In this document: positions 2,846 to 46,411 of the stretch, piece after piece
Layout of the letters: the number at the start of each line of letters is the position of its first letter
How positions within the stretch are numbered: position 1 is the stretch's first letter
DNA from: Sycobia sp. Sy_11
Lineage: Eukaryota; Arthropoda; Insecta; Hymenoptera; Epichrysomallidae
Length of the DNA stretch: 64,000 nt
Direction: 5' to 3'
Assembly: GCA_018907035.1 (NCBI GenBank)
Contig: JACCIC010000021.1
Coordinates: 319,501 to 383,500 of the forward strand
Notes under the pieces: model-generated
Database searches by the model: none
The model's input: the letters and a program-made list of their open reading frames with translations, nothing else
Told to the model about the DNA's origin: nothing
Program-made: the position numbers and the translations under genes

Positions 2846-3564
2846 TTTGGATTGAATTGATTGGACTGTAAGACCAATAAAAAAATATTTATTAATTTGT
2901 ATATGGGCAGTCGACAAAAGTACAATTCAATTGTTATAAGATTTTCTCAGAGTATAATATTTATATTAAAATACTTACAAATGATATACTGATAATTTAA
3001 TTACTGATATTATAACTTTAAAATATAAATATATATTACTTTTTTATATACAATCGATGTTCGAAAAGCAATTATGTAATAGTATAAATATCAGCAGTGT
3101 TTTATAAAATTCTGTATTTAACATTTTAATTAATATATATATAATACATACCATAACTGGGACGATGAATATAATTGTTTGAGGGAAGAAGGAAAGTGTA
3201 TCAAAATACATCGAAAATAACCTCTATTGCATAAAAATTTTGAATTATTTCGCTTGCTTATATTCGGCAAGAAACTGAAGATTTTTGCTAGTTCGTCAAG
3301 CAACTTGCGCTTATGTATTACTTGATTGTGTTGTCTCGCAATACACTTGCGCAAATTTGACGCATCTGGGTGGCAAACCATGCAGGCGTGCGTACGCTTG
3401 GCAAGCGCTGTTATTTGAGTGAAGTCATGCATATGAAAAAACGTTAATTCCCGCCGCTATGTGAAGTGGTAAAACAGGGACTGCAATTATCTTGGTGGTT
3501 CGAAATAGTTGTGCTACCTACATATCGGTGTAGTAGCTTACCTAGATCGATCTTCGTAGGGAAG

Positions 3565-3616
3565 TATAGGGTGTATCACAGGGGATGTTACAGTCCCGTA
3601 TGTACACACCTACCCA
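3565..3616 (-). repeat. fragment of the hammerhead-LTR family (3' end of the LTR)
   Basis: Read on the minus strand, this matches the post-ribozyme part of the LTR at 17751-17800: both share the GTGTACATACG block, the CCCCTGT block and the terminal ACACCCTATA. Homology stops at the base where the 17.7-kb element passes into its primer-binding site, which supports that LTR boundary. No ribozyme core is seen here; the match covers only about 50 bp. Confidence 0.55.
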
Positions 3617-3797
3617 GATAGCAGCGTATGCCAGGCATGATCATGCACGACATCTGATACGTATTCATTCGTAATCTGCGCGTATATTGCGAGATTTCAT
3701 TTGCTGCGCAAGATTGTCAAAAATATGAATGTACATCTTTGCTCAAAATCTAGAGCAAAAGACTGAACTTATTGCCGGCTATATGCAAGAGCAAATT

Positions 3798-3799
<2 letters not shown>

Positions 3800-3847
<48 letters not shown>
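3800..3847. repeat. (TA)n microsatellite
   Basis: A pure TA dinucleotide tract of about 24 units. Similar tracts occur near 17196-17234, 20177-20222, 34199-34232, 34908-34958, 35120-35158, 35187-35220, 47098-47141, 50068-50110, 57390-57440, 61876-61928 and 63857-63902. They account for several low-complexity reading frames of alternating Tyr and Ile. Confidence 0.97.
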
Positions 3848-3851
<4 letters not shown>

Positions 3852-4415
3852 TCCTCGCGAATAAGTCAGCTGTTGGAACGCTGTATATATCAATATATAG
3901 TATACGTGTGCCATGTGAAATATACATATTATGTGACATTACAATCAGATATATGGACTTATTCTCTATTTTGACGATTATTCGAGAAATAATTAATTGA
4001 TTAATATAAAATATATTTTATTATTATTGATGATTAGGACAAACCAGATTAATGAGTTTTTAGGACTAGATTATATAAATATAAAGATTTATATCATAAA
4101 TTTTATTATGTTCATTCATATGTAATTATTATATTTTAATTTATTTGTGTAACTTAATATAATTAATTACATATAATTGCATTAGTTTAATTTTATGTGT
4201 AAAATAAAAGTATTTTGAAAATTAAACTTAAAATAGATGAAAATATGATCTATTATAATGTTTTGAATAATATTTATTTATTTATTATTAATGTTTTTAC
4301 GACCTATATGTACACGAATATATATTTAATATGTAACATATTCTTGCATATTTGAATTTTTATATTTTCTCGCCTTGGTACTGCGCAAGCAAGTCCGCGT
4401 TTTTTACCGTTACAT

Positions 4416-4712
4416 TGTGGGGTATCGAACCTCCACATGCATACGCGTCGCCGTGTTAGTGCACATGTATACCGAGAGAGAGAAGAACATCACCTTGCCA
4501 GCGCCTTTAGCCGCCGCCACCGCGCTCGTGCATCCGCAAATGCGCCAGTCGTAGAAGAAACGAGCTAGCGCCGAGTCGCTACCCCGTCCCTTTTGTGCCT
4601 AGTGCGATAGTTTAATTGTACGCTTCTTAATAAAACCTATTTGTGTTTTACAGGTTGTGTGCTTATTTTAATTCCTCTCCTCCTTATTCGTTGGCCGCAC
4701 ACCCCGGCCACA
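4416..4712 (+). repeat. 5' LTR of the gypsy element
   Basis: This 297-bp copy is highly similar to 13515-13817. It starts TGTGGGG and ends GGCCACA. It contains a GC-rich block of CGCC and GCC triplets and a CGCTCGTGCATCC segment, then an AATAAAACC polyadenylation-type signal near 4630, followed by a T-rich stretch. No hammerhead core is present on either strand. Differences from the other LTR show age after insertion. Confidence 0.95.
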
Positions 4713-4732
4713 TTAGTAACCCCGACGCAGCA
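4713..4732 (+). other. putative primer-binding site, tRNA-Trp-like
   Basis: Immediately after the LTR, AGTAACCCCGACG resembles the complement of the 3' end of insect tRNA-Trp (the GTGACCCCGACG region), with a few mismatches. The same tRNA fits the primer site of the hammerhead LTR element at 17732-17749. Confidence 0.6.
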
Positions 4733-5185
4733 GTAACTAGCACCTCCAGGAGCCGCGGCAGCCGAGCCTGCCCTCCAGCATCATCTACGACAGCAGCCAA
4801 GCCTGCTCTTTAGCATCATCTCTGACAGCAGCCGAGTCTGCACTACAGCATCAGCGCCTTCAAGCAGCCACGCGCCCAGCCACTGATTTCGAGAATCGGC
4901 GCGACGTTTTCTTTTTCAAACATCGAAATGTTTCAGGTTTCGTAAAATTTTTTAAGCGTGCGTTTATTTCCGCTCTGTTTTTGCATTATTGCATTAATTA
5001 AATTCATTACATTATTTTATTAATTAAATTCATTGCATTATTTTATTAATTAAATTCATTTTTTTAAATCAATTCGTGCGATTAAATGTAATATTATCTT
5101 TCACTTTCAATTTAATATTGATTATAAAATTTTCATTCTTATCTTATTAAATCGATGTAATTGCTACATAATCTAGATTCTGCTA

Positions 5186-6540
5186 GAGACTAGACATGCC
5201 CTAGGATGCGCGTCTCATTGCCTATGCCGACGATGTGGCAGCCGTGATAGTCGCACTCGACTATCACTTGATTCAGTTAAAGCTGAATCAGGTCATGAGA
5301 CGCGTGAACGAATGGATGACAGATCACGGACTGCAGCTCGCGCTGCAAAAGACTGAGTTGTTGCTGCTGACTCGTAGATGTATACAGACGGTGGTTCCGA
5401 TGACGTTAGCGACGGAAAGACTGGAAACCAGGAGCGAAGTCAAGTACCCTGGCGTTACCTTGGATACGAAGCTGAGCTTCTGGCCCCACCTAGGAAACGC
5501 GGCGACAAAGGCAGCAGAAAAGACCAAGGCTCTAAGTAGACTGATGACCAATACGAACAGACCGAAACAGAACGTTCGCAGACTGCTGATGAGCGTTACC
5601 CACTCGATTTTGCTTTACGGGGCGGAGGTTTGGGCCGACGCGATGAAATGCGCGAACGCCATGAAAAGCGTACAAAGGGTGGGCGTGTTAAGAATCGCGT
5701 GCGCGTATCGTACTGTGTCTGACTGTGCCGTTTTCGTGATTGCTGAGGTCGTTCTCATCGATCTGCTCGCGGCCGAACGGAAGCGAATTTATGAGCGGAG
5801 CCCGAACGTTGGAAGGGAAGACGCTGTGACTAAAGAACGGACGAAGACCATCGAGACATGGCAGAGAAGGTGGACGACGGACGAAAGAGGACGGTGGACG
5901 AAAAGACTAATACCCGAAATCGGCCCGTGGAAAGAGAGGAAATACGGAGAGGTGGACTTCTACCTTACCCAATTTCTGTCCGGACACGGATACTTCCGTA
6001 AGTACCTCTGCAAGATGAAGAGGGTCGCCTCTTCAGACTGCAAGTACTGCGGATGGGCTTGGGACGATGCGGAGCACACATTTTTTGTATGCGAACATTG
6101 GACTGAGCCACGACTAGAGTTACAGACGAGGACAGGAGCGGTCACGCCAGAAAACGTGACGAAAATTATGATGACGGACGCGGACAGCTGGCGGTTGATC
6201 GCAAAATACGTTATGAATGTGCTTCAGAGCAAAAGAGCAGATGGATGTCTGGACGATTGAAAGTTTATGAAGAGTGAATGTAATATCAAGTATGCATGAG
6301 AATCTGGAATGAAAGATATGAACGTGAAATGACCACGCAAGGACTGCCGCCCAGGCTGAAGTAATGTGTATAACAGTTCCGGGCTGGTGTCCGTGCAACA
6401 CGGAGATATGTGTTTAGTGCGTAGTGACATGAGTTTTCTGTCCAGTCGCACATACTCCGGTGGTTGTTTTTTTCAGGACCATTCTTGCTGAACGACCATC
6501 GGAGATGCATAAACAGCATTCACAGACTCCGCAAAAAAAA
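5186..6540 (+). mobile_element. 5'-truncated R1-clade non-LTR retrotransposon nested in the gypsy leader
   Basis: The 15-mer ATCTAGATTCTGCTA is found at 5171-5185 and again at 6541-6555, a clear target-site duplication. The inserted DNA starts in the middle of a reverse transcriptase frame and ends with a 3' untranslated region and a short A tail (about 6533-6540), as expected for target-primed reverse transcription with 5' truncation. It lies between the gypsy LTR and gag, so it is younger than the gypsy insertion. Confidence 0.95.
5187..6260 (+). pseudogene. R1-clade ORF2 C-terminal half (RT palm end to zinc knuckle)
   Basis: The frame enters just before the RT active site: RLIAYADD is encoded at 5211-5234, preceded by one in-frame TAG at 5202-5204. 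It then runs open for about 350 codons to TGA at 6258-6260. The thumb region is recognisable (GLQLALQKTE, then YPGVTLD and ILLYGAEVWADAM), followed by the C-terminal Cys-His motif CKYCGWAWDDAEHTFFVC typical of R1-type ORF2. The upstream endonuclease and most of the RT fingers were never copied. Because the RT is incomplete it cannot be active. The ORF is otherwise well preserved, suggesting a recent insertion. Confidence 0.92.
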
Positions 6541-6555
6541 ATCTAGATTCTGCTA

Positions 6556-7871
6556 AGTAAAATTTAGATGTTACATACTAACTAAAATTCCTTATAAGTG
6601 CGAGTGTGTGAAACAAAATCTCGCCATTGTTGTCAGCGAGGCAACACACGCTAACAAAAGCGTCGCAGAAATTGCGTATTCTAGTTTTAAACTCAGTGCT
6701 ACAATATTCCCTCATTCTCAATACTCTTAAGTTTATCTCCTTTTTAAGCAATTAACAATAAATTATGAATGTATTGATTTAATTTTATGGACTGAAAGCC
6801 TCAATAATATATCTTCTTGTGCGCTGTATAACTTCATTAATACTTAAATTTTTATATAGCTGATTTCTTTAAATTTTCCATTAATTTCTCTTAAGTAATT
6901 TTATTTAATTTTTGTTTATTTTTACATTTAACTATTTTCAGCATATTATCTTAATAAATCAAAATACAATTTAATTAATTAAATTCCCTAAATTTAAAAT
7001 TTCTATTAAATTTTATTTTGGTTAGCTCCCTATAAATAATTAATCCGCCCACTCATTGAAGGAGTTTTGCAGATCTCAGGAAGATTTAATAAAAACTTGG
7101 TCTTAATTTAATTAGTATTAATAATATTTAATACTATTGTTTTACATATATATACATATATTTCCATAAATATTTCTCACCATTTAGCTAACTTCACTTT
7201 TTATTTTTATAAATATCGTTTTATTAATAAATAAAATTTAAAAAAAAAACAATAAAATATTTTCTTCCTAATTATTAAAACAATTTTGCTGTAGCAATAT
7301 TTTTTTTATGTTTGATTCATAAATGGTATAACTATTTATCATATAAAAATTGTTTCATTTCAATAATTTATTATATTAGCTTAAATTCTTTGTCAATTTA
7401 AATAATAATTTTCAAGAATTTAAATTTATAGCAGAATTCATATTTCAAATAACTATTTTCTTCTTTTTTCCATTCAATTTAAATTTAATAAAAAATTTTT
7501 GTGCGATTAGGCCCCTAATCAAATTAATTAATTTTTGCTACCGCCTTGCCCCTCTTATCAAGACAACTGCAGTGATCTTGAGCTGATAATTATATTTACT
7601 TATATATTAATATATTTATCTATTTATTACATATTTCAAAAAGTTATACATTCATATTTCTTACTCACACGAACATTTCCACAGATCATTTTTTCATTAT
7701 ATATACAACACGTAACACCTGTTGGTTTCAGATTTACCTCTTTGCCGATTTAATTTTTTTAATTGTGTAAATATTACTTAACCCCTTTGATTTTTTGTGG
7801 TCATCCTCGTCATCTGAATACATACACAAATATACACAAGTGTTTCGCGTTTTGTTCCTAAATAAATAATA
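6556..7871 (+). other. gypsy leader, AT-rich and non-coding
   Basis: About 1.3 kb between the nested R1 fragment and gag has no recognisable coding sequence. It is very AT-rich with many T and A runs. Small frames here (for example 7535-7753) are hydrophobic translations of AT-rich DNA and are not called. Confidence 0.6.
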
Positions 7872-8981
7872 TGTCTAACGAAAAATTAGTGAATATATCA
7901 CCGCACGGTGACTATACCGTAGAGAACACCAGTCAAACCCGCAGCGGTACTAGCTTTCAAAAAAACCACTAAAACCAACGCGATCGGTGTAAATAACAAA
8001 ATGGAGAATGACCTCCAGTCACAAGTAAATAAAATCGAAAAACTGAAAGTACAAATGCAATCAATTCAAGAATTATTAATGAAATTGAACGCAATGACCG
8101 AATCAAAAGAGAAAAATAATATGCTAGACATTGTATAAGAATCAAAACCTGCCGCAGAAACACAAAAAATAATAAACCGGGCATATAATTTTATGCCAAC
8201 AAGCTCTTCAAATTCCAGTCATAGGAATACAAATATTTACAATTTAGAATACATAACAACGAGAAACACGTATGAAAGTTATAATTACGCGGGGAATCAT
8301 AACTATAATCCGTAAAAACCAAACATAATACCTAATAATACCACCGCGAGCATTTTCGAAGACGCGGCTTTTCAACAATCAATGTCGAGTCCAGCAAGTT
8401 CTCAACGGCATAACTACAGACAAAATTACGATCAGCAACCTCGCGATAGACACTTCGAATATCATAGAATACCAAACATTCAAATGCAATCGTTATGGGC
8501 CCACGACCAGGAAGCGTGGTTAATTATGTTCGAAAATCAATTAAACTATTACAGGATCACAGAAGACGAACAAAAATACCATATCTTAATAAATAATATC
8601 GGCCAACTGGCAATGCAAAAATTAACTTATTATTTTAAAAGATTAACTCCGGGACGACCATATGAAACGATGCGTCAAGCAATTACCAAAGAATTCTGCA
8701 TTAGTCCAGAACAAAAGCTTGAAAATTTTTACAGGGATTCCCAATTGGGAAATAAGAAACCCTCCGAACTGCTTTATTAGATGCTCGATCAAGCCGGTAA
8801 TAGTATTGCGCGTAACACGGTAATAACTTTTTGGAAAAAGCGCCTCCTGGTCGACATTCAAATTGCGATCGAAAGCATCGAAGACGAGGAGCGCATGATT
8901 AAACATAGCGATCTCATTGCGGACATAATAATAAGAATAAATTCAAAGATAGATTCGGTAGACAATAAATACTTTTTTTAA
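7872..8981 (+). pseudogene. gypsy gag-like ORF, broken
   Basis: The ATG at 7872 starts a short acidic N-terminus. After interruptions there is a coiled-coil-like stretch (MENDLQSQVNKIEKLKVQMQ) and then, from 8382, the recognisable gag core: LWAHDQEAWLIMFENQLNYY, followed by KYHILINNI, TMRQAITKEF and SQLGNKKPSELLY. This is the order found in capsid-like Gag proteins of insect Ty3/gypsy elements. A TAG at 8778-8780 interrupts the frame, which continues as MLDQAGNSIARN to a stop at 8979-8981. The stops in the N-terminal part and at 8778 make it a pseudogene. No zinc knuckle and no clear protease is visible between here and the RT (8982-9270). Confidence 0.82.
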
Positions 8982-9269
8982 TCAGAACGATTTTTACAAC
9001 CCGAATGTTAACGCAATAAACAATAACCCGGAAGTTATAGAAACTCTAATGCGCGAAGCCGATACGAAAATACGTTTAATTCATGTAATTTCACCCCGAG
9101 ACAGCGCTCTCTCAGCCGCGGTAATTCCCCTGAGAGACAAAGCTGAAATACGACTCCATACAGGACACCTACCTCTTTCAACAGCCCGCATACACCATCT
9201 CCACAAAACCTTTTGAATATTCAAAAATCATAGCGAACTACCCACGTAATCGATGCGAAAAAAGCAAAA

Positions 9270-11724
9270 CTAATTAGAAACGTAAATGTCTGTCATCACA
9301 TTCGTACCTCCGGACCTCCTTTAAGCCAACCAGCTAGATGGCTAGCACCGGATAAACTAGAAAACGCGAAAAAGCAATTTGCAACTATGTGTAAAGACGG
9401 TATTTGTCAACCTTCCGACAGCCCTTGGACAAGCCCCATTCATATGCCACTAAAAAAGAATGGTTCATGGCGTATCTGCGGCGATTATAGAAAATTAAAT
9501 GCGGTAACAGTTCCGGATAAATATCCACTACCTTACTTACAGGACTTTGCGATAACATTTCAAGGAAACTTTATTTTCAGTGCTCTTGATCTTTATTAAG
9601 CTTTTCGTCACATCCCAGTCGCAAGCGAAGATAAACCTAAAACAGCGGTAACAGCCTTCGGTCTTTATGAATTTAATGTTATGAGTTTCGGCTTCCGGAA
9701 TGCCCCTCAGACGTTCCAAAGATTCATGGATATAACCTTTCGCGACTTAAATTTCATTACGATTGACAGTAACGGTTTGAAACCCACCGCGGATAAAACT
9801 AAAGTAATTTGCGAATTCCCTCGTCCTAAAACTGTCAAAGAACTCCGTCGTTTTCTTGGCATGTTAAACTTCTATCGCAAAATTCTGCCACACGCGGTAG
9901 AGAATCAAGCACCTCTCAATATTTATTTAAAAAACGTGAAAAAGACAGATAAAACTCCAATCAATTGGAGAGCGGAAGCTATTAAAGCATTTGAGAAATG
10001 CAAACAATCGTTAATAAATGCAACTTACGTAACTTTTCCCGATGCAAACGCGGGAATCCATCTCATCACTGATGCATCCGATACGGCTATGGGTGCAGCC
10101 CTTGAACAAAAAACGAATAACGTGTGGAAACCTTTAGCCTTTTTCTCTAAAAAATTCAACAACGCGCAGAAAAATTAAGCGACGTAAGATCGCGAGCTAA
10201 CAACTATATACACCGCAATTAAACACTTTCATTATTATTTAGAAGGCCGCTCGTTTGATATATTAACCGACCATAAACCGCTATTTTACGCACTTCAAAA
10301 AAACTGCGATAAAGCTCCTGCCGTTCGAAAACGACAGCTAATCTATATTTCACAATACAACACGAGTATTAAATACCTTTCCGGTTCCGATAATGTCGTA
10401 GCAGACACACTCTCGCGTATTGATGCGTACACTAAACTATATATTTTCAATTTAAATAATTTCGAAGTTAAAAACGACATACAATTATGCAAATTAATTG
10501 ATAATATAGACGCGTTCCGTCTACCAACCCTTTTTAACGCGGAACAACTCGTGCAAGAACAACATAAAGATGAACAGTTATATCAAATCATGAGGGATTG
10601 GAATCACCTTCTTAAATTACGCGAATTAACAATCGGAGAAAATTATACTCCTTTATACTGCGATATTTACAAAGAATACATCCGTCCATACCTTCCGACT
10701 CAACTTCGTGAGGAGGTATTTAAGCTTTACCATAATAAATCACACCCAAGCGCTAGGACACCAATTAAATTAATCCGAAAACAATACGTTTGGCCGGATA
10801 TGACTAAAGACATCACGCAACGTTGTAAAACATGTATTGATTGTCAACAATCTAAAATAAAACTTCTTCTCGTTTCTCTCATGTCCATATCGACATCGTA
10901 GGCCCTCTCAGAACTCATCACGCCCAATCTTATCTATTAACGATGATTGACCGATTCACCCGCTGGCCCGAGGCCACCCCAATTGAAGGCATTACCTCTT
11001 CAACTATTGCTCGAGTTTTCTTTGAGAACTGGGTGTCTCGCTACGGCGCACCCACATTTATCACTACTGATCAAGGAGCCCAATTTGAGAGCCAACTCTT
11101 CGTAGAGCTCTTGAAAACTATAGGTAGCGAACGTATCAGAACCACGGCGTTCCACACCCAGGCAAACGGAATGATCGACCGGTGGCACGGCGACGTAAAA
11201 GCAGCGTTAATGTGCCAGGCCAACAATCCAGACTGGCCGCGACTTCTCCCTACTGTTTTGCTGGGACTTCGAACTCGTCTCAGATCTGATATTGATGCTA
11301 GTCCTTCCGACCTCGTTTATGGTACCGGCCTTCGAATTTCCGGCGTCTTTTACGCTGATGAGGACGAATATCATGACCCACGCTTTTTCCTAGATCAATT
11401 TCGCGAACAAATGAATTCACTTAAACCAATTCCCCTTAAACATAATATTTCACTTAAACCAGTTATCTTTAAAGATCTCACGCAGAGAGTTCACATGTAT
11501 TTCTAAGACGTAAAACTGTTAAACCGCCACTTGAGCGACCCTACACAGGACCCCATAAAATAATCTCGCATAATGCGGACGACCTCAAAATCGTAATCGA
11601 AGTAAACGGAAGAAACAAAACTGTAAGATTAGAATTAGTAAAACCAGCACACATGCTGCCAAATGAAAACGATAATACTAATCAAAATAAAATAAACGTG
11701 AACCTAAACGTAAATAATCATTGA
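9270..11724 (+). pseudogene. gypsy pol (RT, RNase H, integrase) with RT active site deleted
   Basis: RT begins near 9279; PSDSPWTSPIHMPLKKNGSW and RICGDYRKLNA are clear, then a TAA at 9597-9599 interrupts at DLY. After FRDLNFI (near 9760) the frame passes straight into TIDSNGLKPTADKTKVI, so about 55-60 residues containing the YxDD motif are missing. RNase H follows (LITDASDTAMGAAL near 10070; LTDHKPLFYAL near 10265). Integrase has an HHCC finger (10730-10850: H and H, then CKTCIDC), a frameshift near 10865, then IDIVGPL, TTDQGAQF and HTQANGMIDRWH. The third catalytic residue, normally Glu in ANGM-E, is Asp (near 11175). A chromodomain-like tail follows to 11724, where a Penelope-like insertion interrupts. 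Clearly Ty3/gypsy and non-functional. Confidence 0.93.
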
Positions 11725-12069
11725 ATTGTACTTCTGTCGACTGCCCATATACAAATTAATAAATATGTTTTATTGGTCTTACAGTCCAATCAATTTCAAC
11801 CAAAAATAAAATAAAATAAAAATAAAAAATAATAAAAATAAAAAATAAAAATTAAAAATAAAAATTAAATTAAAAATTAAATTAAAATGATAAAAAATGA
11901 ATGTAAACAAGGACAGTCTGACTGTCATTATCATTTTAATTTAATTTTTAATTTAATTTTTATTTTTAATTTTTATTTTTTATTTTTATTATTTTTTATT
12001 TTTATTTTATTTTATTTTTGGTTGAAATTGATTGGACTGTAAGACCAATAAAAAATATTTATTAATTTG
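11723..12069. mobile_element. short Penelope-like insertion with inverted halves and 12-bp duplication
   Basis: TAAATAATCATT occurs at 11711-11722 and 12070-12081 and brackets about 347 bp. The right half (about 11902-12069) is a direct copy of the terminal segment seen at 2628-2900. The left half (11723-about 11890) is the same terminal segment in reverse orientation, including the GTCGACTGCCCATATACAAA end. The result is a self-complementary insertion with T/A-rich arms. The shared sequence with the Penelope-like 3' end at 2064-2931 assigns the family. It splits the pol tail of the gypsy element. Confidence 0.82.
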
Positions 12070-12587
12070 TAAATAATCATTTAAGCGAAACCGAAGAATT
12101 AAGTAATAACAATTGAATTAATAACTATTCGCAACAAATCTGCGACTCAGGAACTAATTCTCAAATGAATAGTCCCATTCAAAGCCAACATTTAGAAGTA
12201 AATTACGAATTTAATCACTCGACTCCTAGCGTCGAACCGACCCCTAGCGCCTCTTGTAATGAAAGCGATATTACTCAACCAAAATCAATCCTTAAAAAAG
12301 CGAAATCTCAAACCTGCGAAAACGTAATCCAACCGAAACCAATTCTAAAGAAAACTAAGCATCAACCTAACATACTGCGTAGGAACCGTATTAACCTAAT
12401 TAATTGCGATAAGAAAAGAGTAACTTTCGCGAAATTCAACGACACACGTCTAATGGAATTCAAAACACCTATTGTCAATATATACCTAAAAAAATCGATT
12501 TCTCTTGCCAATTTCATCGATATTCGTTATTTTAAATTCAAGGATCAACATTTTTACACAATCCATCTAATTATCCAATTTACATAA
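12070..12587 (+). pseudogene. gypsy pol C-terminal tail with SILK and RVxF-type motifs
   Basis: Bridging the Penelope-like insertion, the pol frame continues (NNHLSETEELSNN), meets a TGA, and then reads on in the same frame into a 140-codon stretch from an ATG at 12165 to 12587. It is polar and low in recognisable domains, but carries two short repeats, QPKSILKK (about 12276-12299) and QPKPILKK (about 12330-12353), followed by KKRVTFA (about 12411-12431). SILK followed by RVxF is the classic docking pair for protein phosphatase 1. Whether the motif works is unknown. From about 12480 the frame is less convincing. Confidence 0.55.
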
Positions 12588-13497
12588 AACTAGATCACTT
12601 TCCAAACATACATTCTATGTCTTACATTCTGAACTCACTCTCAGTATGCATAATATTCCATAAAAAATAAGTTAGGCACGCCAAAATCAAAATCATTTAA
12701 TTTACATCTCCTTTTTATTGCGATTAAGATAAGCCATAATTCGTATACAACTTTCTTAAATTGTAAAATTAATAACTGCGATGAATATGCAATATGAGTA
12801 TAGAAAACCCAGCTCGTCGTTAGATACATCACGAGACAAATTTATAAATAATAACTAGACTTAAGATCGATTCATCTCTATGTAAATAAAGCACATGCCT
12901 TACCCCTTTATTATGTAAACATTAAGCAAATATAATTGATGTATTATCTAATGACTCTCAAATCATATAATTTTGATTCCTTTCTTTTTCAGCTTTGCGA
13001 TTACATTTTATTGCGATTTTTCTTTTTCAGATATGCGATTATATTTTCATAGCGATTTTCCCTTTCAGCTTATGCGAGCGAACTTTTATATATAAAAAAA
13101 ATGTAAATATTGACTTGCGAATTACTTAACTCGTTTTGATAATTTTTTCTTCTCTGAGCTACTATGCTAACTAATTAATCCCATCATTCTGCGATGTGAA
13201 TACCGACCTTATTCTTAATCTTGCGATAAATTACAATCCGCTTAAAAATGTATACCCATTCATTTTTGGAGCGCGTTTTTCCTGCGAAATTTTTCCCACT
13301 GGGTTTTAATCGCAGGTTTTCACCGATCCTCAGCAGGTCTGAGCAAATGCGAGAATGCATGGGGTAAATCTGCTTGTACATTCATATATATTGTTACGCG
13401 TGCTTCTCTCTCACACGCGGTTTTTAATAGTTTTTTTAGTTTTTGCATACGATGTTGCACCTACGAAAAAAAAAAATTATTGAGTAATTTTTTTTTG

Positions 13498-13514
13498 CCC
13501 TTGGGGGGGCGTGA
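13498..13514 (+). other. polypurine tract of the gypsy element
   Basis: A G-rich run, TTGGGGGGGCGTGA, lies immediately upstream of the right LTR, where plus-strand priming occurs in LTR elements. Confidence 0.8.
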
Positions 13515-13817
13515 TGTGGGGTATCGCACCTCCACATGCATACGCGTCGCCGTGTTAGTACACACGTATACGGAAAGAGAGAAGAGCGCTACCTTGCCAG
13601 CGCCTTTAGCCACCGCCACCGCGCTCGTGCATCCGCACGTGCGCCAGTCGTAGAAGGAACGAGCTAGCGCCGAGTCGCTACCCCGTCCCTTTCCCTTTTG
13701 TGCCTAGTACGAGAGTTTAATTGTACGCTTCATAATAAAACCCATTTGTGTTTTACAGCTTGTGTGTTTATTTTAATTCCTCTCCTCCTTATTCGTTGGC
13801 CGGATACCGCGGTCACA
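13515..13817 (+). repeat. 3' LTR of the gypsy element
   Basis: This 303-bp partner of 4416-4712 has the same TGTGGGGTATCG start and CACA end and is followed directly by the target duplication ACAT. It differs from the left LTR by scattered substitutions and small indels near the C-rich block. Confidence 0.95.
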
Positions 13818-13821
13818 ACAT

Positions 13822-16800
13822 TTTAAACGTTCCACGAACTTTTTGAAATCTAAATTCAATTTTGGTTGTACTCATAAGTATATATACAAGTTTTTTCCTA
13901 TAATAAATATAATTCATTGTTTAAACAAAAAGAAAAAGAAAGACTTAAATTTATATTGAGAATCGATTATTGCAACATATTGAGATTTAATAATTCTCTG
14001 ATTTTTAAATTATACAAGGTAAGTTTCTTTAATTATTAAATAACATCGTACTGAATTTAATTCTTAAAAAAGACCACTGAAAGTAGAATATACACATTTT
14101 TCATTTAGCATTACAATTTTCTGAGAAGTTTAATATTGTTACTCACTAAAATTTTGAAATTATTTATTTTGAGTGTTATTTAGATAACTAACATGATTAA
14201 ATTTTTTGTAATTATGTCTTTGTTGATTTATTTTTTTATATTTGGAATAATTATAATCAGTTACATAACTAATTACTAATAATATCTGTTATAATTCATC
14301 ATCGCAACTATGCTATTCATACTCAAAGGAATTTCTCTTCATTCTTATGCAAAAGAAGAAGATGCTTCACATTAATTCAAATAGTTTCACTTTACTTTTT
14401 TATGCTGTATTGTGGATACCATAAAAAATGGTATAGTAAATAATAAATAGTATAAATAAAAATTTTAAAATAATTAGTAATAAATATTGACATATTGTAA
14501 TATTTTAATATATATCTAAATTTTAAATTTAATTGTAAATAAAAACTGTTTTGTATAAAATTTAATTTTTTATAGTTTTATATAATTTGATTTCAGAGGC
14601 CTAGGGGATTGGAAAAAAAATATGCAAAACAAAGAATGTACTGAAGCAGGTTTGTTTGAATTTATAGTTTTTCTTATTGTAAAAGAAATTAGGATAAATT
14701 ATATACAAAAAGTACAAAATGTTTTGTATATCATGGAAAATTTGCATTTAAGTTTATGTGGTTATTTTGGTTAATTGAATATCAAATAATAGTTTTTCAA
14801 ACTCACAAAGTGAGATTGTCTGAATATTTTTTCAAAAGTTAAATATTGTTGTTCGCTAATATTTTGATGTTATTTAATGTAAATTTCATTTGGATAACTT
14901 GTATGATTAAATTTTTCTTATTTATATCACTGTAGATTCTTTTTATATTTAGAATAATTTTAATCAGTTACATAACTAATTATAATAATCATAAATGTTT
15001 TAGTTGATCATCGCAATGCGGCGCTCCCCCTTCGCCGCGCCGCGCCGCTCGTGACTTCGCGACTCGAATACAATATATAATATTATTTGCGCGAGACTAT
15101 TTGCTCGTCGCAATTATTATAATCGATATCAATGACATTTAGTCCATGGTATTTATAAATTAACAATAGTAGTGATAACTTTTCTAATTCTCTACTTATA
15201 TATGTAGCCATACTTTTTTTGAATGGATGGGTGCTTTATACATTCAATTCCATAACAATAATTTACACATGGAATTGAAATGTACAAATGAAATTATTAT
15301 TAATAGATTTTTAGATATTCACAAGGAAAGCTTTGGGTCATGGATTTGGCTCAAATTGGTTGAAATATCATTGATTACCTGATTGATAACTCCTACACAA
15401 TTTTAGGATTTAATGCTGTCCTTCCCAAAATATCAATAGTTCTGATTTGAAAATAGAATATATAGTGGTATATTGATATCATGTAATGATACATGTTGAA
15501 GCTCTTCAAATATTCTACTCTTTCTGATGCTTGGGACTTCCTGAAATAAACTCTAATTTGTTAGATCTATATCAAGTAGTATGGGTATTATTTGATTTTA
15601 AATATTAAATATAAGTTGATTATAAGTTGAATATCATATATACGTCAAATAATCATTGTCACTCAAAGATGAAGTTATTCATATTTGTCATCCCATTTAG
15701 AAGCAGAAAAATAAATAAGAGGAAATCTTACATTCTTATACATTAAATAAGAATTTCATTTTTTAATAATTATTAATAATGCATATCCGATGATTTTTTT
15801 CAATCAGAGGTAGTAAATGGAAGAAAGAGAAAGAGTATGTAATCTAATTGTAACATAATAAGAAGAATATTAAAGACTGTAATCTGATTCGACAGTTATG
15901 TAAAATAAATTTTGACCATTGTCCTTGACTGGCACGATTAAAAACTATGCAGTCCTTTAATGAACTACTGTTTTAATGAAGAATAAGTGTTTATATGTTA
16001 TTAAAAGAAAAGACTTTTATTTAATTATTTAATTTATAAGAATGTTATCGTTGTACCATTTTATTTTTCATGATCTATATTTGGGATGACAAATCTAAAC
16101 AACTTCAACTTAGAGTAACATATGATTATTCATTGAATTATTATAATGTGTTTAATTTAATTCATCAATTTAAATAAATGTTTAAATCATCTATATTCAT
16201 TTACAAAAAGGATGATTGCATTCAAAAAGACGACAATTATAAATGTAATATAACTACTATATTAATAATTTATAAATACCATTATTTATGGGAGAGAGAT
16301 AGCTGCTATATACGACCAACCTGTCCTTAACCATGCTGAACAGTTCTCATGCGCGTGCACACATTAAAATTCCCTTATGTTTTAAACGTAAGTGAACTAT
16401 TTGTCAACATTTTGAGCACCTAGAAGCGGCAGCGCGTTTTTTTATGCATATCCTTTATTCGCCCTATACAATGTGCACATTCATGTGGCACTTTCACTTT
16501 GAACACATTGAACCTCTGAACTAATACTTTCATACATTTCTGCACGAGCTTTCAAACCAGTATCTTTGATTTGAAGAAACGTAGTAAGGGGTCTTTCGAG
16601 ATTTAAACGATTTGACAGCATGCATGATGAAAATAATCAGTTCTATTTGTTATTGTAATGTACGTCTAAAAAACAATAAACTCAAAAACATATGAATATT
16701 AATCAAAAAATGTAAATTGCTAAATAAATTAGTAGTAACTGATTGAATATGTATGTGTTTGTTTTGAAATAAAATATATCTTTGTTGAAATGTATCTAGA

Positions 16801-17194
16801 AAATATTAAATGTACTAGCTATAAATATTGAAATAGCTGTATATACTGTAACGGCTTATAAATAACCTCCAAATGTATATTGTATATTGTAATATAACTG
16901 TAATGTATATTGTAATAATTAATTATAAAAATATTCTGTAATAATAATAATAAAGACAGATAGAAAATCATAAATACATACATATGTAAATATATAAATA
17001 TATATATATATATATATACATGTATATATTTTGTAACAATAATAAATAAGCTTACCGATATTTTTGCAAACGAATACAATATATACGTTATATATAGTAC
17101 AACAGGTTCTAATAATTGATTGCCAATGCCTATTATAATAGTATAAACTGTATGCATCAATAAGTATATGTAATTATTTAAATTTGAATAATTT

Positions 17195-17234
<40 letters not shown>

Positions 17235-17470
17235 TGCCATCTGATGCATAGAAACATAATTTGAGAATCAGAACTTATAAAATTCGCACAAGCGAAGCTT
17301 ACTCCCGAATGGAAACACGATTTGCTTGACAAATCGTGTGTCTAATTTGGACCGATTCTGAAAGCACGATGAGCTTCTCCAAAACGTGGATCCAATATAG
17401 AAACAGATAGGACCCACACGCACATGCTCACTGGACCCAAACCGTGGCGAGCACGCGCTGTTATCTGGGT
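13822..17470. other. AT-rich stretch without recognisable genes
   Basis: No supported gene. Two related segments of about 200 bp occur in direct orientation (about 14115-14310 and 14815-15020), followed in the second copy by a short GC-rich island (15015-15065). Between about 15140 and 16295 there are several facing similarities (for example 15630-15700 against 16080-16140, both with TTTGTCATCCCA), suggesting a decayed element with inverted structure. A (TA)n tract lies at 17196-17234. The minus-strand frame at 16819-17160 is an AT-rich low-complexity translation. Confidence 0.5.
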
Positions 17471-17476
17471 CATGGT

Positions 17477-17545
17477 GCGTTTCGTCCCGGGGTTACCGAC
17501 TGGACTCATCAGTAAGGCATTGTCGGTAACCTCTGCCTTAGACGC
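17477..17545 (-). ncRNA. hammerhead ribozyme, type III (canonical core), LTR-B
   Basis: Minus strand, 69 nt, in order: stem III strand GCGT with cleavage after the following C (GCGTC, 17545-17541); stem I TAAGGC (17540-17535) pairing with GCCTTA (17518-17513); CTGATGA (17512-17506); stem II GTCC (17505-17502) pairing with GGAC (17487-17484); GAAA (17483-17480); and ACGC closing stem III (17480-17477). All invariant core bases and all stems are perfect. Loop I (16 nt) and loop II (14 nt) share a 10-nt perfect complement. A TATA-like box 26-35 bp upstream would place transcription start at about the ribozyme's 5' end. Confidence 0.93.
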
Positions 17546-17570
17546 GATCATATGGACCGGGTCAAGGGCT

Positions 17571-17580
17571 TATATATTAA
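17571..17580 (-). promoter_or_regulatory. TATA-like box in LTR-B (same box in LTR-A at 17914-17923)
   Basis: Minus-strand TTAATATATA stands alone in otherwise GC-balanced LTR sequence and is conserved in both LTRs at the same spacing, about 30 bp upstream of the ribozyme cleavage site. This fits RNA polymerase II initiation near the hammerhead. Confidence 0.55.
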
Positions 17581-17666
17581 CCGGAGGCCTGTGTGGTCAC
17601 TCACGGGTTAACTAAGGGTGCCCCAGCTGCCCTCTGTTGGCAGACTTGGCATGTGGATACCCCACA

Positions 17667-17682
17667 TCACTCCCCCTGAAAT
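17667..17682 (-). other. polypurine tract of the retrozyme-like element
   Basis: Minus-strand CAGGGGGAGTGA directly precedes the TGTGGGG start of LTR-B. The resident gypsy element has the same layout, a G-rich run ending GTGA next to TGTGGGG at 13498-13515. Confidence 0.75.
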
Positions 17683-17731
17683 GAGGCGAGGGTAGGGGGT
17701 ACGTGACTTCATACGAAGATTGCGTGTTTAG

Positions 17732-17749
17732 ATCAAGTCGGGGTCATCA
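17732..17749 (-). other. primer-binding site, tRNA-Trp-like
   Basis: Minus-strand TGATGACCCCGACTTGAT follows LTR-A and matches the complement of the 3' end of tRNA-Trp with only two or three mismatches (the TGACCCCGAC core is exact). Confidence 0.72.
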
Positions 17750-17821
17750 CTATAGGGTGTATTACAGGGGATTCTGCATTCACGTATGTACACGCCTATA
17801 TTTAGAGCAATGGCTCATGGT

Positions 17822-17890
17822 GCGTTTCATCCCGGGGTTACCGACTGGACTCATCAGTAAGGCATTGTCGGCAACCCCTGCTTTAGACGC
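17822..17890 (-). ncRNA. hammerhead ribozyme, type III (slightly degraded), LTR-A
   Basis: The copy of the motif at 17477-17545, shifted by 345 bp. CTGATGA (17857-17851), GAAA (17828-17825), the cleavage triplet and stem III are unchanged. Stem I has one mismatch (TAAAGC against GCCTTA), and stem II closes with a G-U pair because GGAC became GGAT. The loop I/loop II complementarity is kept and slightly longer, with one G-U wobble. Likely weaker than the other copy. Confidence 0.85.
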
Positions 17891-18765
17891 GGTCATATGG
17901 ACCGGGTCAAAGGCTTATATATTAACCAGAGGCCTGTGTGGTCGCTCACGGGTTAACTAAGGTGCCAAGCTGCCCTCTGTTGGCAGACTTGGCATGTGGG
18001 TACCCCACAGAAGTGCAGTTGCAGCGGCGGGATCGTTCCATTTGAATTGAACTTATTGAACGCCCTATTTTTCGTATTACATGAAATTATTATATGGATG
18101 TAATGAAAATGTATGTTTTGTAAAGATTATGTATAAATGACGTGTAATTGTGTACGTGAAATAAATTTAAAAATTTTATTTTTTTACAGAAAAAAATCGA
18201 GGTGTAGAGAATATGAAGCAGCATATTGAAGATGTTTTTAAAACTGTATAAGTTCTTAATGTATTGATGAATCAGAATAGATGCAATTTTTTCTCAACAT
18301 TTTAATAATATATAACATTCAGCAGTCATCTTGTTGGTTATAAGAAGTTAATAAAATAAAAAGACATATTTTGATATGTGAACAAAACAGTTTTTGTTTC
18401 TAAGATTATTAAAGTTTTCAAGTACAACCTATAACAAATATATCAGAAAACAATGAACTTAAGTATAAATATAATTTTATGAATTGATTGAAATTGCAAA
18501 ACATCTGAATTTTATGAATTATTATAAAAGAAGTAAACAACTTTGAAAATATCTTAACATTATTTATTATTAATTTATATACTCTGTTCAATATTTAAAA
18601 TGTAATAAAAATGTACAGTGCTTATTCATATCAAATGTCTGTAATATTTGATTTATTTCAACATTATTTACTAAATATGTTCAGTAAGTTTAAAGATATA
18701 AATATTTGATTTTCTGCATATTATTTTAAACAATTGAATATAAAAGTTTCCTAATATATACATTT

Positions 18766-35267: not shown

Positions 35268-36553
35268 GGTTTCTACTGAGAAATATTGTATTGTCGTGTA
35301 CGGGCGATTGATTACGATATTTCGTTGCCTCAAGACGATTTCTATAGGTAGTTGTGTGTTCGGATGATAGAATGCAATGTCCAGGTGTCTCTAGGCGATT
35401 TCTACGGGGAATATTGTATTTAGTTGATAGAAAACGACGTCCATGTACGAGAAAATCAACTTCTATGGGAAGATTCGTGTATGGACGGTAAAATATGATA
35501 TCTAGGTCTTTCCGAACGACTTCTACGGGGAGTATTGTGTTTAGTCGTTAGGAAGCCATGGTAGTTTTCTCGGGACGACTTCTACTCGGACTATCGTGTT
35601 TAGTTGGTAGAAAACAATGTCTGGCTATGACGGGACGACTTCTACGGGGAATTTTGTGTTTGGACGGTAGAGGACGATGTCCAGGTATGACAGGACGACT
35701 TCCACGGAGAATTTCGTGTTCGGACGGTAAAAGACGATGTCCAGGTGTCTCTAAACGACTTCTATGGGGAGTTTCGTGTTTGGATAGTGGGATAAGATGT
35801 CCAAACGCTTTGGGACGACTTCTACGGGAAATTTCGTGTTCGGACGGTGGAAAATGATGTCTAGGTATGAGGGAACGACTGCTACGTGAAATTTCGTGTT
35901 CGGATGGTAGAAGACGATGTCCAGGTATGACGGGACGACTTCTACGGGAAATTTCGTGTTCGGACGGTAGAAGACGATGCCCAGGTATGACGGGACGACT
36001 TACACGGGGAGTTTCGTGTTCGGACGGTAGAAGACGATGTCCAGATATGATGGGACGAGTTCTACAGGGAGTTGTCTGTTCAGACGGTAGAATAAGATAT
36101 CCAGGTGTCTCTGAACGACTTCTACGGGGAATTTCGTGTTCGAACGGTAGAAAACGATGTCCAGGTATGACGGGACGACTTCCACGAGGAATTTCGTGTT
36201 TGGTCGGTAGAAGACGATGTCCAGGTATGACGGGACGACTTCTATGGGGAGTTTCGTGTTTGGATAATGGGATCAGATGTTGGGATGTTTTGGAACGACT
36301 TCGACGGGGAGTGTTTAAGATACTTCTATAATGAGATTCATTTTCTATCGGTCGAACACGCACAATCCCAGTAAAAGTCGTCCCGGAATACCTGGACGTC
36401 GTAAACTACCTTCCTAACAAAAAACTCTATAGCAGTCGTCCCGAGACATGTTCTATATTACGAACATGATACTCTATAAACGTCGTCTCGAGACACTTGG
36501 ACATCTTTTCTTACCGCTCGAACTCAAAAGTACAATTTTCCTCATAAAAGACG
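35268..36553. repeat. 60-bp tandem array that inverts near 36330-36344
   Basis: About 17 direct units of exactly 60 bp run from about 35268 to 36316, with core words GGGACGACTTCTACGGGGA, TTCGTGTTCGGACGG and GATGTCCAGGTATGA. From about 36344 to 36553 roughly four more, diverged units appear in the opposite orientation (CCTGGACGTCGT, GCAGTCGTCCCG). Because 60 is a multiple of 3 and stops are rare in the unit, long frames result on both strands: 271 codons minus (35548-36363) with a 20-residue repeat RPVIPGHRLLPSEHE, and 154 and 99 codons plus. I treat these as by-products. Inverted arms made of tandem repeats resemble Foldback-type elements. Confidence 0.92.
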
Positions 36554-40382: not shown

Positions 40383-41560
40383 CAGTAAATAAGTCTTTCC
40401 GTTTTTTTTCAATTTTGAGCTTTATGTGAAAAAAGGTTCAAATGAATTATTGAAAGTATTGGCATCGCTAGCTAACAACTTTTTTTTTTGGCAACTACGA
40501 ATCCCGTTGCGAAAAAATGATTTGTCTATCCAGCATCACCATTTTTGTTCTCGAGGAATGGAAGTGCTGGTCAGCCAGGCCATGCGTCATCGATCTGAAG
40601 AGATGGTAATCAGACGGAGCAACGTCTGGACTATACGGCGGGTGAGGTAGGACTTCCCATTTGAGCGTTTCTAAGTATGTTTTCACCGGCGGTGCAACAT
40701 ATGGGCGAGCATTGTCATGTTGCAAAATAACTTTGTCGTGCCTGTCGGAGTATTGTGGCCGTTTTTCTCGCAGTGCGCGGCTCAAACGCATCAATTGTCG
40801 TCGATAGACCTCGCCTGTGATCCTTTCATTCGGTTTCACAAGCTCATAGTCAACCACACCTAGCTGGTCCCACCATATACAGAGCATGAGCTTGGCGCCA
40901 TGAATATTTGTCTTGGCCGTCGATGATGATGCATGGCCGGGTAGTCCCCATGATTTTCTTCGCTTCGGATTATCGTAACGTATCCACTTTTCATCGCCAG
41001 TCACGATACGATGCAGAAAACCCTTTCTTTTATGTCGCTAAAGCAGCTGTTCGCAAGTGAAAAAACGCCGTTCGACGTCTCTCAGCTTCAGTTCGTACGG
41101 CACCCAATTTCCTTGCTTTTGGATCATTCCCATGGCTTTCAAACGCTTGGAAATGGTTGTTCGGTCAACTCCCAATGCTTCAGCAACTTCTTCTTGCGTT
41201 TGACAAGAATCTTCATCAAGCAAAGTCGCCAATTCTCGATCTTCAAAGATTTGCGGCCGCCCGGAACGCTCCTTGTCTTCCACGTCGAAATCACCGCTTT
41301 TGAAGCGTCGAAACCATCTGCGAACACTTGAATCATCGACACAACCTTCTCCATAAGCCTCCTGAAGCAATCGATGCGTCTCGGCAGCAGATTTCTTCAA
41401 ATTGAACCAATAAAGTGAAACTTCCCGCAAATGACGTCGACTCGGCTCAAATTTCGACATTTTCACGATATCAAAAATTTATGATGCGAAAAAATTTTAA
41501 CTAATGTGTTAGTATGGAATTGTTGACATATGAATAAGCTTTGATTATGACATATGTATA
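40383..41560 (-). mobile_element. mariner element (sister of 783-2061), missing its 5' terminal repeat
   Basis: The minus-strand copy matches the 783-2061 mariner closely through the coding region and flanks. Its 3' terminal repeat is recognisable at about 40383-40408. On the other side homology ends at about 41560, about 80 bp short of the expected 5' terminal repeat, exactly where the BEL LTR copy begins. The loss of one end makes it immobile. Confidence 0.9.
40447..41460 (-). pseudogene. mariner transposase, broken
   Basis: The start ATG is at 41460-41458, and the N-terminal DNA-binding half is intact to a TAG at 41040-41038 (a Gln codon in the sister copy, in EQLLQRHK). The frame continues with TGDEKW, HDNARPY and APSDYHLF, retaining all three DD34D aspartates, then shifts near 40560 and decays to the stop at 40449-40447. 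Its nonsense position differs from that of the copy at 952-1989, so the two died independently. Confidence 0.92.
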
Positions 41561-45392: not shown

Positions 45393-46411
45393 ATGTTAAG
45401 TTTTGAGCCAAGTAAGCGTTATTTGCGGGAATTGTTATTTTACTTCTTTCATGTAAAGCAATCTGCAGTTAAAGCACATCGACTAGTCATAGAAGCATAT
45501 GGTGATGTTAATTTGAATGAGAGAAGTTGTCGGGAGTGGTCCCAAACATTTAAAAGTGGCGATTTTGATGTGGAGGACAAAACACGCAGTGGAAGGCCCA
45601 AAGTGTATGCTGACACAGAACTGGAAGCTTTACTGGAGAAAAATCTGCCAAACGCAAAAAGAACTTGCACAAGAGTTAGGAGTGACTCAACAAGCTATTT
45701 CACAACGTCTCCAAACCCTCGGTATGGTCCAAAAGCAAGGAGATTGGGTTCCTTACTAACTGAAGCTAAGAGATGTCGAGCATCGCTTATTCGCTTACGA
45801 ACAATTGCTCGAAAGGCAAAATCGCAAAGAATTTCTACATCGAATCGTGACGATACTACGACAACCCAAAGCATGGGAAGTCATAAGGTAAGCCCGTGCA
45901 CGCCTCTACTTCTATAGCCAAGTTAAACATTCATGGCCGGAAGCTAATGCTGTGCATTTGGTGGGATCAGCTTGGAGAAATCAATTGCGAACTACTCCAA
46001 CACAATCAAACCGTCACCGGGGAACGCTATCAACAAGAGCTGGTGCAATTGAGCCAAGCATTAAAGATTAAACGTCCACTATATGCCAAAAGGCACAATA
46101 AAGTCATTTTTCAGCATGACAGCGCTCGGTCACATGTTGCAACAATCGTAAAGGAAACATTAGAAGCACTGAATTGGGACGTCCTACCTCACTCGCCGTA
46201 TTCACCAGATATTTCTCCTTCAGACTACCACCTATTTCGGTCGATGACTCATGATCTGGCTGAGCAACATTTCGCTTCTTACGAGGAATTGACGAAATGT
46301 GTTGATTCGTGGATCACTTCAAAAAACGAGTAATTTTTTAGACGGGGTATCCACTTGCTGCCCGAAAGATGATCAAAAATAGTAGAAAGTTATGGGAAAT
46401 ATTTTGAATGA
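45393..46411 (+). pseudogene. mariner transposase (mauritiana type), heavily broken
   Basis: ATG at 45393 starts a recognisable DNA-binding half (FKSGDFDVEDKTRSGRP). A frameshift near 45650 is followed by QTQKELAQELGVTQQAIS in another frame, and a stop in WVPY. As in the copy at the window start, the TGDEKW segment with the first catalytic Asp has been deleted (near 45848-45856, only a GAT remaining), and the same downstream Trp codon is a stop (TAA here, TGA there). HDSARSH and SPSDYHLF retain the second and third Asp. The element extends to about 46457, but clear terminal repeats are not visible. Confidence 0.9.

Follow-up and report, generated by a model that had tools for sequence, protein, structure and literature searches.

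Reviews up to 2024 describe plant retrozymes as LTR elements with type III hammerhead ribozymes and animal retrozymes as non-LTR elements with type I hammerheads (PMC7761336, PMC11722881). The plant elements, as set out in the accessible text of PMC4918200 and PMC7761336, are non-coding, carry their hammerheads in the LTRs, have a primer-binding site (PBS) directly after the 5' LTR and a polypurine tract (PPT) directly before the 3' LTR, and leave 4-bp target-site duplications (TSDs) and solo LTRs; their interiors measure 300-700 bp, their RNAs 600-1000 nt, and their PBS matches tRNA-Met. They have PBS and PPT boxes in common with Ty3/Gypsy elements and nothing else alike (PMC4918200). Metazoan non-LTR retrozymes are also non-coding and hammerhead-delimited, with monomers of 170-400 nt, but consist of tandem repeats with type I hammerheads and a GC content below 50%, and lack LTR, PBS and PPT (PMC7229834).

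Type III hammerheads have been reported from insects in other settings. They occur in termite and toad HDV-like RNAs and in termite and dipteran genomes (PMC7936874), where they have an atypical stem I architecture and the termite genomic copies are isolated motifs; according to the authors, no motif of that architecture is present in hymenopterans. PMC7761336 names insects among the organisms with type III hammerhead elements, as a possible source, giving no details in the text available but referring to previous studies and to data in preparation, so that type III elements in insects are not unsuspected. Miniature LTR elements form a further group for comparison. PbTRIM of the harvester ant is a miniature insect LTR element that leaves many solo LTRs and duplicates 4 bp of target, in many cases ATAT; its LTR measures 152-184 bp, its PBS matches tRNA-Leu, and the word ribozyme is absent from the text consulted (PMC3532108). 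Helenus TRIMs are short LTR elements with tRNA-like sequence and, in animals, 4-bp TSDs; in the available text of PMC10886601 hammerheads are mentioned nowhere but in the title of a cited paper on plant retrozymes.

The element described here lies on the minus strand of a 64-kb window (the whole stretch of DNA that was analysed) and is quite likely an LTR retrozyme whose host is probably an insect: an element of about 600 bp that is non-coding and non-autonomous, with a type III hammerhead in each LTR and a putative Gypsy helper. Its DNA contains LTRs, PBS and PPT, and the host genome holds dispersed copies with 4-bp TSDs, solo LTRs and hybrids with a Gypsy LTR. As in the plant elements, type III hammerheads sit in the LTRs of a non-coding unit, PBS and PPT directly adjoin them, and a Ty3/Gypsy element has the same PBS and PPT boxes (a likeness for which LTRs were compared using one copy of the Gypsy-type LTR). 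Unlike them, it has a tRNA-Trp PBS, a presumed non-plant host, an interior of 84 bp, a predicted RNA of 345 nt, 14-nt hammerhead loops that are complementary at 10-12 bases, and the hybrids. With metazoan non-LTR retrozymes (PMC7229834) it shares a presumed animal host and a monomer within their size range; the type I hammerhead and the LTR-, PBS- and PPT-free organisation of that class are not found in the window element. The tRNA-like sequence of Helenus is a sense promoter within the LTR (PMC10886601), whereas the present element has its tRNA-like stretch in antisense orientation, in the interior that separates the two LTRs.

Going by these features, the element is placed among the LTR retrozymes as a candidate non-plant member that shows new traits. 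Among the papers listed in an open-access library, none describes an animal LTR retrozyme, and the first-pass annotation, which gave type I as the hammerhead of known animal retrozymes, agrees with PMC7229834, PMC7761336 and PMC11722881 as far as their available text goes. An animal LTR retrozyme would break the division between plant LTR and animal non-LTR forms and bear on the choice between a single origin, several origins and horizontal transfer. If the reading is true, LTR retrozymes are not confined to plants, and a helper can be named from DNA alone.

Layout of the window copy

The element is genuine and recurs throughout the host genome. The copy in the window (Table 1) consists of a 259-bp LTR and a second LTR separated by 84 bp of internal sequence, with hammerheads 345 nt apart. 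The first-pass annotation had described two LTR-like minus-strand copies at that spacing, enclosing 84 bp with a tRNA-Trp-like primer site and a PPT, and alignment bears this out: 18009-17811 matches 17666-17466 at 93.5% identity over 201 columns. The gag-pol of an autonomous LTR retrotransposon is not found in the 84-bp interior. The 345-nt unit has a GC content of 53%, against 34% for the window.

Table 1. Features of the element in the 64-kb window
Feature	Position	Strand	Remark
TSD CTTC, 3' side	3561..3564	-	directly after the 48-bp LTR remainder
3' LTR, last 48 bp	3565..3612	-	85% to 17798-17751; same CCCTATA end
Insertion splitting the 3' LTR, about 13.9 kb	3613..17469		inverted ACCCAGATARCAGCG at both ends
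3' LTR, first part	17470..17666	-	93.5% alignment to 5' LTR
Hammerhead type III, 3' LTR	17474..17548	-	cleavage predicted at 17541/17540; core and stems intact
Loop I (17533-17522) and loop II (17500-17489) of 3' LTR hammerhead	17489..17533	-	mutually complementary
Predicted self-cleaved monomer, 345 nt	17541..17885	-	spacing of the two predicted cleavage sites
Polypurine tract AGGGGGAGTGA	17667..17677	-	immediately 5' of second LTR; similar box in other copies and in Gypsy-type element
PBS (17749-17732), running on into antisense tRNA-Trp-like stretch	17685..17749	-	16/18 at PBS
5' LTR, 259 bp, TGTGGGG...CCCTATA	17751..18009	-	ends from exact 1-259 genome alignments
Hammerhead type III, 5' LTR	17819..17893	-	cleavage predicted at 17886/17885; weakened by stem I A-C mismatch
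TATA-box-like TATATAAG	17914..17921	-	starts at LTR position 89; putative promoter role
TSD CTTC, 5' side	18010..18013	-	same letters as CTTC at 3561-3564

The 3' LTR is interrupted. Its truncation upon insertion was considered and dropped, as its last 48 bp and a matching CTTC were found at 3.6 kb; the remainder and the CTTC on both sides point to an original LTR-internal-LTR element with a 4-bp TSD that was split later, with 16 bp of the LTR absent at the break. The intervening insertion of about 13.9 kb contains pieces of non-LTR and Gypsy reverse transcriptase and of integrase. Elsewhere in the genome, the left LTR of the copy L010 (1782-1912) is cut at a sequence similar to the inverted terminus of this insertion (TATCTG); the sequence is perhaps a repeat that hits the LTRs of these elements.

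Internally, the sequence GTGATGACCCCGAC... after the first LTR matches the complement of the 3' end of what we take to be tRNA-Trp at 16 of 18 positions, and the next best place on either strand reaches 12. In less mutated copies the PBS matches at 17-18 of 18, and one subfamily has two extra PBS bases. The antisense similarity runs on past the PBS, with 55-57 identities in 68-69 aligned columns in four other copies; beyond the first 18 nt, the four copies scored give 41-54, while the highest of 1000 shuffles for each is 26-30. The window copy is weaker beyond 36 nt (p 0.021 against shuffles). From its sequence, the internal domain appears to be little more than an antisense tRNA-Trp-like copy and a PPT.

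Hammerhead motifs in the LTRs

Read manually, the hammerhead has stem III GCGU/ACGC, cleavage site GUC, stem I UAAGGCA/UGCCUUA, core CUGAUGA and GAAA, and stem II GUCC/GGAC. The first-pass annotation had placed a full fold in each LTR, which holds for the 3' copy but only in part for the 5' copy. A strict descriptor (core, three stems and NUH site) has one match on both strands of the 64-kb window, the 3' LTR copy with cleavage at 17541/17540, and 20,000 mononucleotide-shuffled versions of the 5' LTR yield none; the native 5' LTR gives no match to it because of the A-C mismatch in stem I, and its hammerhead also has a G-U pair in stem II. The covariance model that had been proposed as a check gives a mixed answer. 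In a permissive search of 1.1 kb with all families, RF00008 finds both folds (17548-17474, 29.8 bits, E 4.5e-4; 17893-17819, 19.2 bits, E 0.45), but both score below its gathering score of 48.5; no Rfam family reaches its gathering score anywhere in the window, and RF00008 has no match on the plus strand of the 1.1-kb stretch.

Across the genome the motif recurs with the LTR. It is found in 39 of the 39 LTR rows of the first genome search (best 40 of 290 candidates), with the core intact in 26, and RF00008 matches 7 of 11 other loci at E <= 0.1, none of them at the gathering score. With a custom hammerhead model, 55 matches exceed 57 bits and fall in 43 of the 45 distinct places among the matches listed; 38 of the matched sequences served to build the model. 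The best score on the opposite strand is 15.4 bits.

The two 14-nt loops, I and II, complement each other over about 10 nt in the 3' copy and 12 nt in the 5' copy, and minimum-energy folds favour this long loop-loop duplex over the hammerhead stems. To our knowledge, loop-loop complementarity of such length is unusual in a hammerhead. One survey predicts stem I-stem II pseudoknots for about 40% of the hammerheads it covers (PMC3088659). In each of the four copies folded, the predicted circle of 345-347 nt is more stable than its 100 shuffles are on average (z -1.98, -4.7, -3.42 and -1.96). Self-cleavage and a 345-nt circular RNA are predictions from sequence.

Genomic copies and a Ty3/Gypsy-type partner

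The host genome (621 Mb, 472 contigs) was searched with the element (best 40 of 290 candidates scored) and with its internal region (best 40 of 177), which together gave at least 60 loci at no fewer than 45 distinct places. Besides the window copy, the best 40 of the element search include six nearly full-query matches at 90-92% identity and two at 82%; 15 align exactly over query positions 1-259, two of these being right-hand LTRs of the hybrids described below. Dispersed copies have either the LTR-internal-LTR arrangement (259-84-259) or the form of solo LTRs, with TSDs. Among the 60 loci, 29 non-duplicate rows pass a filter on both ends; 4-bp TSDs are perfect in 17, have one mismatch in four and two to four mismatches in eight, the last group including L006, L015 and L057, which are without an LTR end on both sides. 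By arithmetic at this base composition, identical 4-bp flanks would be expected by chance in about 0.2 of 29. The first-pass annotation had taken the absence of LTR-like termini and target duplications from other copies, or a plain tandem satellite lacking the PBS and PPT, as grounds for abandoning its reading; copies elsewhere have both ends and duplications, and retain the LTR/PBS/PPT layout.

Divergence between paired LTRs in nine copies ranges from K 0.054 (the first part of the window copy) to 0.151, corresponding to insertion ages of about 5 to 14 million years at 0.54e-8, a rate taken from an ant (PMC3532108) that may not be the host's. A tandem internal-LTR-internal-LTR arrangement at L006:1462-2101, the sole tandem copy seen, lacks a clear target duplication, and possibly arose from a multimeric template or by recombination. 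Viral contigs contain no exact match to the hammerhead word or to the internal-region word.

In 8 of the 45 distinct places listed (L012, L018, L029, L044, L046, L047, L053 and L056), the internal region is bordered by another LTR, about 340 bp long and here called LTR B as opposed to the retrozyme's LTR A; it is partial in L018 and L029, and the L056 arrangement is inverted. The four hybrids that pass the both-ends filter all have perfect TSDs and so were inserted as units. LTR A and the LTR B of L012 are not significantly similar (best E 0.44), and the custom hammerhead model finds no match on LTR B in the eight hybrids. A genome search with LTR B gives at least 41 matches (best 40 of 151 candidates scored), and among those listed are six same-direction pairs 5-9 kb apart. 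An open frame in a piece of one such element matches Pfam RVT_1 (9.1e-28), with Ty3 as the closest solved structure by sequence (1.6e-37); Pfam integrase was not found in the next 1.5 kb of that copy, where frames are broken.

Five 5' junctions of LTR B elements were read. In four, 13-15 of the first 15 PBS bases match tRNA-Trp and then the match ends, with post-PBS sequence different from that of the retrozyme; the fifth (C112) is left out of this count, as retrozyme internal sequence and an inverted LTR A follow. The PPT/LTR-start box of LTR B, CTCAATTTGAGGGGGAGACA|TGTGGGG (L073), is close to the retrozyme's CTCATTTGAGGGGGAGTGA|TGTGGGG. Judged by these sequences, the Gypsy-type element and the retrozyme have the PBS start and the PPT/LTR-start box in common and little else, which extends the parallel with plant LTR retrozymes drawn in the first-pass annotation. 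At L056:1238-1917 and L068 (G000:C112:854480-854640), LTR A and LTR B are inverted and face each other around the internal region; such copies might be products of self-integration.

Proposed copying route and competing explanations

The transcription start, cleavage, circularisation, priming and transfer route that we infer are as follows. Transcription would start near the TATA-like box; with this box at LTR position 89 and the predicted cleavage site downstream of it, after position 124, the transcript may begin close to the hammerhead. Two hammerheads would cut it to a 345-nt monomer without repeated R ends, whose circularisation would leave one LTR, the PBS and the PPT on the circle. tRNA-Trp would prime minus-strand DNA, made by the Gypsy reverse transcriptase, and the PPT would prime plus-strand strong-stop DNA comprising LTR and PBS, whose transfer to the PBS complement would yield two LTRs; Gypsy integrase would insert the product. 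If Gypsy strong-stop DNA were transferred instead, at the shared tRNA-Trp PBS, the product would have LTR B as its left end and LTR A as its right, as in the observed hybrids. The balance tips slightly towards this full account, in which an insect LTR retrozyme with an antisense-tRNA interior is copied by Gypsy proteins through a tRNA-Trp-primed, self-cleaved circular RNA, and the hybrids are the footprint of second-strand transfer onto helper strong-stop DNA. The hybrids would then offer DNA-level evidence for the helper, and also for the way in which LTRs could be restored to a template that lacks R regions at its ends.

The strongest competitor, unlikely but deserving some weight, is an ordinary TRIM copied from a full-length R-to-R transcript by Gypsy proteins, with the hammerhead a relic or idle in copying. 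Every DNA feature is compatible with it: the element is structurally what defines a TRIM (a short, non-coding LTR element with PBS and PPT), and TRIMs are known in an ant (PbTRIM, PMC3532108) and other animals. Across the 39 LTR rows, mostly from younger copies, variability is the same in the hammerhead and in U3/upstream sequence (0.088 each; downstream 0.110), which suits a TRIM and is also expected if inserted copies decay freely. The comparison of older with younger copies argues the other way. When the majority letters of 9 older LTR rows are set against those of 44 younger ones, 0 of 69 positions differ in the hammerhead, 7 of 71 downstream of it and 9 of 119 upstream, where several of the differences fall at an end whose alignment is ambiguous; Fisher's test gives 0.013 for hammerhead against downstream and p 0.065 against downstream plus U3 minus its first 12 positions. 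Mean old-young differences are 0.126 in the hammerhead, 0.176 upstream and 0.201 downstream. Base-pair counts in 38 rows show no excess over shuffles, and covariation gives the fold no support. Maintenance of the hammerhead between older and younger copies is suggested by the majority-letter comparison, though not strongly. Lying past the TATA-like box, the hammerhead, if active, would also strip the R regions that normal transfer needs, and the hybrid copies require no R-R transfer.

It is improbable that the hammerhead is native to the LTR of an autonomous LTR retrotransposon from which the short copies derive by internal deletion. Some TRIMs do originate in this way (PMC10886601), but solo and paired copies with matching TSDs are complete short elements among the top-scoring copies, and the long elements found have LTR B, which has no hammerhead match in the hybrids searched.

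Two further readings, each with a minimal chance of being right, were rejected on the solo LTRs and TSDs: a plus-strand tRNA-Trp-derived SINE that a LINE has mobilised and whose opposite strand carries the hammerhead by coincidence, which the sense resemblance of the plus-strand interior to tRNA-Trp would favour but which conflicts with element ends that are LTR ends, with the lack of a tRNA call in the window, a box B that looks mutated by eye, and a similarity peaking at the tRNA 3' end as in a primer site; and an integrated viroid-like satellite RNA or tandem satellite DNA, which the unit length, hammerhead type and contrasting GC content recall but which the dispersed LTR-internal-LTR layout, the single tandem copy and the lack of a plus-strand hammerhead match in the 1.1-kb stretch searched contradict.

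The retrozyme copy shares the window with other repeats. Mariner-like transposase copies (Transposase_1; Mos1-type), which suit an animal host, lie at 934-1689, 40498-41037 and 45887-46330, and a long 60-bp tandem array occupies 35356-36264, with a minus-strand open frame through much of it.
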